46,585 bases of DNA from Pseudomonadota bacterium. GTDB lineage: Bacteria; Pseudomonadota; Gammaproteobacteria; Acidiferrobacterales; Acidiferrobacteraceae. Below, in pieces: positions 12,500 through 15,505 of the stretch. Every line of letters starts with the position of its first letter. Position 1 is the first letter of the stretch. The translations under genes were made by a program, and so were the position numbers. Location: positions 1 to 46,585 of the forward strand of contig JAJYHH010000077.1 of the NCBI GenBank assembly GCA_021784845.1, read 5' to 3'. The notes below the pieces were generated by a model, which was given only the letters and a program-made list of their open reading frames with translations, searched no databases and was not told the origin of the DNA.

Positions 12500-13051
12500 G
12501 TGAGATTCGAGTGGCGTAATCGTAGAAGGTTGGTGGCGCTGACGCAAATGGTGGCGGGACTCGTCCTGTTTGCGTGCGCACCGCGTCTGGCGCTTGCCCT
12601 GCCAAGGGCCGTGGATCTGCGCAGCCTGGGGGCCCTGGCGCTTGCGCGCCGCACGCCGATCGTTCTCCTCTTCCGTTCCCACACATGCCGCTATTGCGCG
12701 GTGGTGGCGCATCAGTTTCTGGATCCGGCGGCCCGTGAGCCGCAGTACCGGCGCGTCCTCTTTCGCAGTGTGTACATCGACAGCAACAGGCCGCTTACGG
12801 ATTTCGCCGGGGTTCACACCACCGAGGCCCGGTTCGCGGCCCGCTACCATATCCGGCTCGTGCCCGACATCCAGTTTTACGACGGTCACGGGCGCCAGGT
12901 CGCCCATCGCCTCCTTGGCCTTTCGACGCCAGACTTTTATGCTTCCTATCTGTCGGCGGCCCTGCACAGGGCGATGCGCGCGTGTGCCCGATCGCCGGCC
13001 GGTACGCCCGGGCGACACCATTCATACACCACAAAAGGAGAAGATCGATGA
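12500..13051 (+). CDS. Exported thioredoxin-fold protein (start uncertain: GTG 12500 or ATG 12548)
   Basis: Hydrophobic N-terminus (MVAGLVLFACAPRLALA), FRSHTCRYCAVVAHQF (CxxC active-site-like), LVPDIQFYDGHGR (cis-Pro-like). Confidence 0.75.
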   Translation: MRFEWRNRRRLVALTQMVAGLVLFACAPRLALALPRAVDLRSLGALALARRTPIVLLFRSHTCRYCAVVAHQFLDPAAREPQYRRVLFRSVYIDSNRPLTDFAGVHTTEARFAARYHIRLVPDIQFYDGHGRQVAHRLLGLSTPDFYASYLSAALHRAMRACARSPAGTPGRHHSYTTKGEDR

Positions 13052-13497
13052 CAAAAGCCCTGATTCAGGCCCGCTTGCTCATGGCGGGTTGCGCGTTGAC
13101 CCTTCTGATGTTTGCCACACCGAGTTTTGCGCGGTTGGTGTCGCATGCGTTTGCCACCCATCATCTCGTCGTCCAGATCAGCAACGGGTCCGCCGCCGAA
13201 CAGACGCTGGTCTTGAACAATGTCGCAAACGTGCTGAATCATTTTGGCCCGGACAAAGTGCAGGTGGAGATCGTCGCCTTCGGTCCCGGCCTGCGGTTGC
13301 TCCTAAAGCACAACGTGAACGGGCCGCGCATCCGCAGCCTGTATGCCCAGGGTGTCGAATTTGCCGCCTGCCACAACACCATGATGAGCATGCACCTGAC
13401 CAAGGCCGATCTGAATCCGGTGGCGCACGTGGTCGTGGGCGGCGTCGTTGAAATCATGCGTCGCGAAAGCGAAGGCTGGAATTACATCCGTCCCTGA
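13048..13497 (+). CDS. Secreted DsrE-family protein (copy 1)
   Basis: SD AAGGAGAAG upstream of ATG 13048; signal peptide MTKALIQARLLMAGCALTLLMFATPSFA; DsrE-like core with GVEFAACHNTM conserved-Cys motif. Confidence 0.82.
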   Translation: MTKALIQARLLMAGCALTLLMFATPSFARLVSHAFATHHLVVQISNGSAAEQTLVLNNVANVLNHFGPDKVQVEIVAFGPGLRLLLKHNVNGPRIRSLYAQGVEFAACHNTMMSMHLTKADLNPVAHVVVGGVVEIMRRESEGWNYIRP

Positions 13498-13505
13498 GTA
13501 GGTGC

Positions 13506-13534
13506 TTGCGGGTGGGTGATGCGGTAACTATAAA
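13506..13534 (+). promoter_or_regulatory. Putative sigma-70 promoter of the porin gene
   Basis: TTGCGG (13506-13511) - 17 nt - TATAAA (13529-13534); followed by AT-rich leader and SD GAGGAGGAAGG. Confidence 0.55.
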
Positions 13535-13574
13535 GACATAACACAAAAAGGCATATTTCCGAGGAGGAAGGTTT

Positions 13575-14975
13575 ATGAAGAAGTCACTGGTGGCTGCCGC
13601 TGTCGCGGTGGCCTGCATGGGTACGGCTCATGCCACGAACTGGTTCCAGCTGCAAGGGACCGAGCCAAACGGCACGGCGCCGCTTTACAAGGTGTTTGGA
13701 TTCATTCAACCGACGTACTTCTCGACGGGGGGGTCGACGGTATCGGGTCTCGTGGGTCCGGGTGCGGCTTTTAATGGCACGGCGCCGAACTTCAATCTGG
13801 TGGCGCCCCAGCACACCTCGAGTTCGAGCTTCGAGATCATGCGCGCCCGTATCGCCGTGCGCGGTACGGTTCTGCCGATCAGCAACAAGATCGATTACTT
13901 CATCATGGCGGAGTTTGGCAATAACGGCGCCACCCAGGTGCCCGGTGGGTCGGTGGTGCGCCTGACGGATGCGTCGGTGACCTTCAACCAGATCCCGGGT
14001 GCCCGTGTCCGCGTCGGCTTGTTCAAGGCGCCTGGCGCCGAAGAAATGATGATGGGCATACCGGCGATGGACTATGTCAACTTCACCACCGTCACCCAGC
14101 AGCTCCTCTTCAATGAATTCACAAACGGCAATGTCTATACCAATGCTGCCGCCAAACTGACCGGCGGCGCCGGCGGCTACGAGGCCAATGTCGCCGAGAA
14201 CGATGTCGAACGCGACATCGGCGTGCAGGTGTTCGACTGGTTCAACAACGGCCCCTGGCAGTTTACATACGCCGGCATGGTCGGCAACGGCGCGCCCATC
14301 AATGGCACGCAGACCGCAAGCCAGCCGAGCTACTACGCGCGTGTTCAGGAATCCTACATCTTCCATCACAGCAAGGGGCCGCATCAGGCCGGTGTGACGG
14401 CCTGGCTGTGGGGCCATGTCGGCCATGGCCGGCTGAACGTCGGCAGCGCCACTAGCGCCTACACGACGCAAAACTACACCTATGAGCGTTTTGGCGGCGG
14501 CGCCCAGTTTCGCAGCAGCTTCATGACCCCGGGCGCCATGTCGGCCACCGGCGAATGGATGCGCGGCAACGGCTGGATCCTCGTGCCGGCCGCGTTTGGC
14601 CTGCCGCCGGGGGGTGCTGTGTGCGGTGCCGGTACAACGGGTAATCCCTTGTGCACGGGCTCCATCTATCCCGGCCACAACAACCAGGCCGATGGCTGGT
14701 ATCTGCAAGGCGGCGTGTTCGCGACCCGGAATGTGCAGCTCGAGGTGCGTTACGACCAGTACAACCGCCTGATCAACAGCGCGGCCAACGAGCGCATCTT
14801 CAAGACCTGGACGTTTGGCGCGCAGTACTGGTTCTCGCCGATGGCGCGCGTGACCCTGAATTACGCCGTCAACCGTCTGGTCGTGCCGTTCCCGAAGGCG
14901 GCGGGCCCGAACGCCAACCCGGTCGCCAACTCGATGGACAACGTCATCTCGCTGCAAACGACCCTGATGTTCTGA
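13575..14975 (+). CDS. Outer-membrane porin-like beta-barrel protein
   Basis: Signal peptide MKKSLVAAAVAVACMGTAHA; alternating amphipathic strands; C-terminal aromatic residue (ends SLQTTLMF); KIDYFIMAEFG and ARVRVGLFKAP typical of phosphate/polyphosphate-selective porin-like proteins. Confidence 0.85.
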   Translation: MKKSLVAAAVAVACMGTAHATNWFQLQGTEPNGTAPLYKVFGFIQPTYFSTGGSTVSGLVGPGAAFNGTAPNFNLVAPQHTSSSSFEIMRARIAVRGTVLPISNKIDYFIMAEFGNNGATQVPGGSVVRLTDASVTFNQIPGARVRVGLFKAPGAEEMMMGIPAMDYVNFTTVTQQLLFNEFTNGNVYTNAAAKLTGGAGGYEANVAENDVERDIGVQVFDWFNNGPWQFTYAGMVGNGAPINGTQTASQPSYYARVQESYIFHHSKGPHQAGVTAWLWGHVGHGRLNVGSATSAYTTQNYTYERFGGGAQFRSSFMTPGAMSATGEWMRGNGWILVPAAFGLPPGGAVCGAGTTGNPLCTGSIYPGHNNQADGWYLQGGVFATRNVQLEVRYDQYNRLINSAANERIFKTWTFGAQYWFSPMARVTLNYAVNRLVVPFPKAAGPNANPVANSMDNVISLQTTLMF

Positions 14976-14992
14976 CCTTGCAAAGGAGCACT

Positions 14993-15505
14993 ATGAGATC
15001 CAGTCACTGGTTACTGGCCGGCGCCCTGGCGGCATTCGCCTTCCAGGCGCGTGCCGCCGACGGGTTCGCGCACTGGCATACCCTGCATATTCAGGTGCCG
15101 GTGGTGCTAAAGCAGGCCAAGGTGGTTTTCAATATGGATCACCTGGCTTTCGTGCCGCACACCCGCGAACCGGTCGGTTTGTCGCAGATGCGCATGATGG
15201 TGGCGAAGTTCACGCGCGACCACACGCACTGGAAGATCGACGGCATCTTCCAGGGGGCGGCAGGTTACATGGTCCTGAACAACAAGGCCTATGACCGCTT
15301 CATGCACGTGCGCACCGGCAATCCCTATACGGGCCAGATCGAAAAACTGATCCACCAGGGGGTCGATATCGAGGCGTGTGGCGTGACGATGCGCGCCTAT
15401 CACTGGGGCAACCGGCAACTGTTACCCCATGTGAAGGTGAATGCCGGCGCGCTTGCGCGCATCATTCAGCTCGTGCAGCGCGGGTACGTGCAGATCCAAC
15501 CCTAG
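14993..15505 (+). CDS. Secreted DsrE-family protein (copy 2)
   Basis: SD AAAGGAGCA then ATG 14993; signal peptide MRSSHWLLAGALAAFAFQARAA; HQGVDIEACGVTMRAYHW conserved-Cys motif. Confidence 0.82.
   Translation: MRSSHWLLAGALAAFAFQARAADGFAHWHTLHIQVPVVLKQAKVVFNMDHLAFVPHTREPVGLSQMRMMVAKFTRDHTHWKIDGIFQGAAGYMVLNNKAYDRFMHVRTGNPYTGQIEKLIHQGVDIEACGVTMRAYHWGNRQLLPHVKVNAGALARIIQLVQRGYVQIQP

Follow-up and report, generated by a model that had tools for sequence, protein, structure and literature searches.

DsrE-type sulfur carriers are known from the cytoplasm and, like extracytoplasmic function (ECF) sigma switches and porins, represent a familiar kind of protein. Proteins of the DsrE fold use a Cys to carry sulfur; DsrE3A of Metallosphaera forms a Cys-S-thiosulfonate from tetrathionate (PMC4175335). 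In the Riftia symbiont the most abundant protein is a porin, EGV52132.1 (PMC7787665). The Sox system, like the module proposed here, is periplasmic and based on Cys carriers. This report concerns a gene cassette at positions 12500-15505 (+ strand) of a 46,585-nucleotide stretch of DNA (the window), which derives from a 1.83-Mb draft genome, 80% complete, of the family Acidiferrobacteraceae. The cassette encodes a thioredoxin-like protein, a DsrE protein (DsrE1), a porin-like protein and a second DsrE protein (DsrE2), and is flanked by leftward hemC and leftward rlmJ. To our knowledge, neither DsrE proteins nor the porin are components of Sox. The cassette is probably the form taken in Acidiferrobacteraceae by a conserved module of exported DsrE proteins and a porin, a module that would serve periplasmic Sox-type oxidation of reduced sulfur oxyanions. 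The open-access literature searched yielded no description of a DsrE-sensor anti-sigma, of periplasmic DsrE proteins, of a porin paired with exported DsrE carriers, or of their encoding next to sox; prior mention elsewhere is possible.

The cassette DsrE proteins resemble DsrE3A/TusA of Metallosphaera cuprina and the cytoplasmic DsrEFH proteins in fold and in their presumed Cys-carrier chemistry; SSO1125 (3mc3), the solved Sulfolobus counterpart of DsrE3A, is the second Foldseek hit of DsrE2. In contrast to DsrE3A and DsrEFH, which are cytoplasmic and tied to TusA, Hdr or DsrC, the cassette proteins have predicted export signals, sit on either side of a porin and come without DsrF, DsrH or TusA partners. 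A DsrEFH/TusBCD complex was rejected, as the two DsrE genes are split by the porin and have export signals; canonical-looking dsrEFH genes lie elsewhere, on C113. Linkage to a DsrE3A-TusA-Hdr carrier system was also rejected, the neighbours being hemC and rlmJ and a tusA-dsrE-hdr-like cluster lying on another contig. The phosphate-selective porin O/P family has PF07396 in common with the cassette porin, while the similarity is weak and the genetic context different.

The DsrE-porin cassette of Acidiferrobacteraceae

The earlier note on this DNA described four consecutive plus-strand genes, and all four open reading frames are present, each with a Pfam match above its cut-off (Table 1). In the window and in 15 relatives (16 genomes) the order DsrE1-porin-DsrE2 lies between hemC and rlmJ, with protein identities of about 50-94%. 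Because the three genes are held together in 15 other genomes of the family, their order is not due to chance. The flanking hem and rlmJ/mazG genes are also syntenic, so synteny of the cassette by itself indicates retention, not function. Beyond the 16 genomes, G003 has DsrE1 and the first part of the porin gene at the edge of a contig. Only the third genus (G004) lacks DsrE2, and it encodes a porin (36%) with no adjoining DsrE gene.

Table 1. Positions of cassette features in the window and of related loci discussed in the text
Feature	Position	Strand	Evidence
Thioredoxin-like protein, predicted exported, 183 aa, motif HTCRYC	12500..13051	+	PF13098 33.4 bits (cut-off 27), 6e-8
DsrE1, predicted exported DsrE protein, 149 aa	13048..13497	+	PF02635 28.9 bits (cut-off 22.7), 1.4e-6
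Cys108 codon of DsrE1 (FAACHNTM)	13369..13371	+	invariant 16/16 in family
Sigma70-like promoter TTGCGG-N17-TATAAA ahead of porin gene	13506..13534	+	conserved in window, L041 and L042 only
Shine-Dalgarno of porin gene	13563..13571	+	GGAGGA kept 16/16
Porin-like outer-membrane protein, Porin_O_P-like, 466 aa	13575..14975	+	PF07396 22.1 bits (cut-off 20.9)
DsrE2, predicted exported DsrE protein of distinct subfamily, 170 aa	14993..15505	+	PF02635 25.0 bits (cut-off 22.7), 2.2e-5
Cys129 codon of DsrE2 (EACGVTM)	15377..15379	+	invariant 16/16; kept in ttr-linked and SoxB-fused homologues
Motif upstream of soxB match, window genome	G000:C39:25641-25665
ttr locus, Sulfuricella sp. T08	L124:579-10501
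DsrE2 fusion, SZUA-467 (P0001)	L102:3537-5696
DsrE2-like locus, G156	L108:5294-8768
DsrE1-like gene past soxB, G222	L192:924-1367
Tandem ECF/anti-sigma pairs, G165	L209:463-3891

DsrE1 and DsrE2 both belong to the DsrE/DsrF family (PF02635), passing the gathering cut-off and retaining the active-site Cys. The single Cys to which attention had been drawn in each protein, C108 of DsrE1 and C129 of DsrE2, is present in all 16 genomes, and Cys108 has an aligned Cys in 34/34 DsrE proteins from porin loci. It also aligns to the Cys of the MTH1491 structure 1l1s, which DsrE1 matches at 1.5e-14. The AlphaFold model of DsrE2 (pLDDT 75.8) has a DsrE fold, and at E < 0.001 it retrieved MTH1491, SSO1125, YchN, ST0148 and a designed protein modelled on one of this kind in Foldseek; the top Protein Data Bank (PDB) entries, 1l1s, 3mc3, 1jx7 and 2pd2, all have the DsrE fold. 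DsrE2 contains many invariant His and Trp residues, and its 3′ end shares 44 bp (window 15462-15505) with the convergent rlmJ reading frame. In a tree, the window DsrE1 clusters with porin-linked DsrE1 proteins from other families. Acidiferrobacteraceae also encode a third exported DsrE paralogue (L056-L059), 46-50% identical to DsrE1; the copy in L057 stands alone downstream of pnp.

All four cassette proteins begin with a hydrophobic N-terminal segment and have an A-x-A-like cleavage site, judged by inspection and hydropathy, consistent with the export claimed for them, and the predicted signals of DsrE1, DsrE2 and the porin are kept in homologues. Neighbourhood, Cys residues and export signals, named beforehand as the points on which the original proposal could fail, have all survived in silico. 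PF07396 is matched by all 15 aligned members of the porin family (best 3.4e-10); no PDB sequence relative of the porin was found. The porin gene had been credited with its own promoter and a strong Shine-Dalgarno sequence; the latter holds throughout the family, whereas the promoter, although literally there, is kept in only three genomes, all of the window's genus.

The thioredoxin-like gene is an accessory. A homologue is found in 5 of the 16 Acidiferrobacteraceae cassette loci, which led us to reject the four-gene cassette as a unit or conserved order, and leaves unsupported the suggestion that its product is a conserved member acting as reductant. The 4-bp ATGA overlap between this gene and DsrE1, from which coupling had been argued, does exist in the window; it is not general among the five thioredoxin-bearing loci. 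No PDB match was found for the protein, and the search for a SoxW/SoxS-type identity gave the PF13098 match, no NCBIfam match and a gene that is not near sox. The start of the gene (window 12500-12550) coincides with a conserved stretch that persists upstream in thioredoxin-less genomes (L043-L055) and that, read leftward, looks like a promoter for hemC (in an Acidiferrobacter-side genome, TTGCGT-N17-TAGGAT).

A wider module linked to ECF sigma factors and sox

The module extends far beyond the source organism, usually with an ECF sigma factor whose anti-sigma bears a DsrE domain, a reach that the earlier note missed. Profile searches of a sample of 274 genomes, which also served for the co-occurrence tests below, found the porin family in 51, spread across the class. 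Forty porin loci from 29 families outside Acidiferrobacteraceae were then inspected, together with ∼5 kb of flanking DNA to either side. In 28 of them (22 families) the gene immediately upstream of the porin, on the same strand, encodes a DsrE1-type exported DsrE protein, and 24 (20 families) have an ECF sigma factor with a ∼240-aa protein, always divergent from the porin; DsrE1, porin, ECF and anti-sigma all occur together in 19 loci from 16 families. Other recurring flank genes are few, comprising a small-lipoprotein cluster in four loci and clusters that are seemingly antisense or unrelated.

The ECF partner contains sigma70 r2 and r4 domains. The N-terminus of the ∼240-aa protein is anti-sigma-like (sub-threshold zf-HC2/RseA_N matches) and precedes one hydrophobic segment at about residues 73-86 (20 members), while the C-terminus is a DsrE domain (profile versus 1l1s 8e-18) whose Cys is invariant in a 20-sequence alignment. 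An ECF factor paired with a single-pass protein that has a predicted periplasmic DsrE half fits an ECF sigma/anti-sigma switch, and the protein is a putative anti-sigma. It is encoded in 18/18 Acidiferrobacteraceae genomes; in the window genome the pair is located on contig G000:C9, apart from the cassette. In a whole-phylum sample the full-length DsrE anti-sigma is limited to the window's class, other classes matching mainly the DsrE part, and a search for the anti-sigma or the porin on plasmids or viruses found none. In G165 one DsrE1-porin unit has two tandem ECF/DsrE-anti-sigma pairs upstream.

Both components track SoxB. When phylogeny is ignored, 45/51 porin-positive genomes have SoxB compared with 67/223 that are porin-negative (odds ratio 17, p 1e-14); for the anti-sigma the figures are 58/61 positive and 54/213 negative genomes (odds ratio 57, p 4e-24). 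Physical linkage is also seen. G211 and G321 contain an operon of ECF, DsrE anti-sigma, soxX, soxY (with the GGCGG end), soxZ, soxA and soxB, with DsrE1-porin divergent from it, and SoxX, SoxY, SoxZ and SoxA score above their equivalog cut-offs. In G222 an extra DsrE1-like gene, additional to the DsrE1-porin copy, lies 13 bp past soxB at the same locus. Sample-wide co-occurrence and linkage in these three genomes are the pattern of a Sox accessory, the window cassette itself being unlinked, and from this genomic context a Sox-linked periplasmic sulfur role is likely.

A scan of the whole collection showed that Sulfuricella sp. T08 and three genomes from metagenomes encode predicted exported DsrE2 homologues, 52-56% identical. 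In Sulfuricella, ttrB-ttrC-ttrA is followed by the DsrE2 homologue (56% identity), a TlpA/ResA-like protein and DsbG, with ttrR/ttrS opposite; the best models for the ttr genes are Ttr (349, 194 and 1212 bits), all below the curated equivalog cut-offs. This locus shares DsrE2 with the cassette, whereas DsrE1 and the porin were not recognised there. In SZUA-467 a secreted metallophosphatase/5′-nucleotidase-type protein carries a C-terminal DsrE2 domain; its best model is SoxB at 177 bits against a cut-off of 550, and it is thus SoxB-like rather than SoxB. In G082 a DsrE2-like gene is divergent from a porin of the same family as the window porin. The gene for a DsrE2-like exported protein in G156 follows those for an NrfD-like protein and a protein with CxxCH heme motifs, an arrangement reminiscent of the dsrOhPh-tetrahaem locus in cable bacteria. 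A search for TtrA in 18 family genomes found none in 17 and one 35% hit in the other; tetrathionate reductase as the partner in Acidiferrobacteraceae is accordingly unsupported and was set aside.

A shared promoter motif

A de novo spaced-word count upstream of the ECF and DsrE1 genes yielded GGAATA-N15-17-CGTC, which precedes 18/26 ECF and 9/30 DsrE1 genes where about 0.02 would be expected. Written out more fully the motif is GGAATAA-N15-17-CGTCT. With C[GA]TC as its second half, the motif is found upstream of soxB in 11/43 anti-sigma-positive compared with 0/17 anti-sigma-negative genomes (p 0.025); shuffling gives an expected count of 0.08 for all 60 genomes. The window genome's own ECF gene is preceded by the motif, and an ECF-type copy lies about 94-95 bp upstream of its soxB match, as it does in a congener. 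Some genome-wide matches, probably within coding sequence, occupy an identical position in more than one genome of the family; these were excluded as targets.

Published accounts give the consensus of ECF26, at thiosulfate/sulfite-inducible promoters, as −35 GGAAT and −10 CGTC (PMC6527743; PMC3511301). GGAATA-N15-17-CGTC agrees with this consensus (PMC6527743), an agreement of promoter sequence alone. The ECF26 factors RpoE4 (Sinorhizobium) and SigE (Starkeya) have in common with the factors described here the promoter consensus and a genomic tie to sulfur oxyanion oxidation. RpoE4 and SigE control sulfite dehydrogenase genes, and the portions of these accounts consulted describe for them neither a DsrE anti-sigma nor control of DsrE-porin or of a sox operon. 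What looks like a mention of DsrE in the Sinorhizobium paper is seemingly no more than ‘DsRed' in its reference list.

Proposed function and alternative readings

Gene content, conservation, linkage, promoter motif, DsrE fold and predicted export can be read from the sequences; for the cargo of the porin, the sulfur loading of the Cys, the transfer partner and sensing by the anti-sigma we infer the following scheme. The porin would pass thiosulfate, tetrathionate or a related anion across the outer membrane. The single conserved Cys of DsrE1 and of DsrE2 would take up the arriving sulfur group, as Cys-S-S-SO3 or Cys-S-SH, and the loaded proteins may pass it to Sox enzymes or buffer it for them. 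Reduction or release of the Cys-bound group may fall to the thioredoxin-like protein where one is present; at the ttr locus other thioredoxin-fold proteins adjoin the DsrE2 homologue. In most relatives the ECF sigma factor would be held by the membrane anti-sigma, whose periplasmic DsrE domain may sense the same species through the same Cys, and the freed sigma would induce DsrE1-porin as well as the gene that encodes it; some genomes would have soxB or the sox operon under its control too. The window organism has the sigma/anti-sigma pair at a separate locus, with the motif ahead of soxB but not of the cassette. The broader proposition, that Sox bacteria possess a hitherto undescribed system of envelope sulfur sensing and trafficking in which the periplasmic anti-sigma DsrE domain reads a Cys thiosulfonate or persulfide and, via the ECF factor, controls exported DsrE carriers, a dedicated sulfur-oxyanion porin and, in some lineages, sox, is in our judgement evenly poised.

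The exported DsrE/porin sulfur system first suggested for this locus gains from SoxB co-occurrence, soxXYZAB linkage, the ttr and SoxB-like-fusion contexts and the ECF motif, while thioredoxin membership and general coupling find no support. Several observations weigh against a role in Sox-type oxidation. The window cassette does not adjoin sox genes, and the ECF motif is absent upstream of DsrE1-porin-DsrE2 at 16/16 family loci, so that the effector genes appear to be out of ECF control in this lineage. Only 11 of the 43 anti-sigma-positive genomes have the motif upstream of soxB, it is absent before soxB in the five Acidiferrobacter-side genomes tested, and the GGAAT/CGTC consensus is shared with ECFs unconnected with sulfur. 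By the count used, 12/40 porin loci have no adjacent DsrE1, some of these sitting at contig ends. The near absence of TtrA from Acidiferrobacteraceae means that the ttr link of DsrE2 is not directly transferable to the family. The co-occurrence statistics ignore shared ancestry; the positives nonetheless span many families. Finally, export of the cassette proteins is a prediction, and the predicted porin structure (pLDDT 39.6) is too low in confidence to tell the type of pore.

Some of these features could be viewed as defence against reactive sulfur or thiol stress, with DsrE scavenging or reporting toxic sulfite, polysulfide or oxidised thiols, the porin altering permeability, and the module taking no part in energy metabolism. 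Envelope stress is a typical setting for ECF/anti-sigma pairs, and thioredoxin-fold proteins lie beside some loci. ECF26 regulators with the same consensus control a sulfite response in Sinorhizobium (PMC3511301; PMC6527743). However, catabolism accords better with soxXYZAB linkage and with a distribution nearly confined to SoxB genomes, and no detoxification enzyme recurs beside the module, making stress defence unlikely. Alternatively, DsrE1 might be mainly regulatory, forming mixed oligomers with the anti-sigma sensor for ligand delivery or negative feedback and leaving the porin as the sole transport part. Indeed, DsrE proteins oligomerise, DsrE1 and the sensor have their subfamily and Cys motif in common (FAACHNTM versus F.AC.N.I), and so too the promoter motif of their genes. 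That some DsrE1-porin loci have no adjoining sigma/anti-sigma genes, and that the Acidiferrobacteraceae cassette lacks the motif and yet has highly conserved DsrE1 and DsrE2 beside the porin, makes such a role quite unlikely.

It is very improbable that the His-rich DsrE2 and the Porin_O_P-like channel serve to move metals, phosphate/arsenate or other anions in acidic water rich in metals, with only an incidental sulfur context. The many invariant His and Trp residues of DsrE2, the match of the porin to a phosphate-selective family and a CDF-type cation transporter gene 4 kb from the cassette are in keeping with such traffic, but the CDF gene belongs to the background synteny, and the associations with SoxB, sox operons, ttr and the SoxB-like fusion point to sulfur. 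Returning to the role in Sox-type oxidation, which we favour, the recurrence of the module in sulfur oxidizers, its sigma/anti-sigma pair and its linkage to sox point to undescribed sulfur uptake, carrying and sensing outside the cytoplasm. If this is correct, exported DsrE proteins tied to an outer-membrane channel and to sox would fill gaps in how thiosulfate and tetrathionate enter through the outer membrane of Gram-negative bacteria, are carried in the periplasm and are sensed. Such a system can be tested directly through its carriers, its anti-sigma sensor and its promoter motif, and would have a bearing on chemolithotrophy as well as on bioleaching and acid mine drainage.

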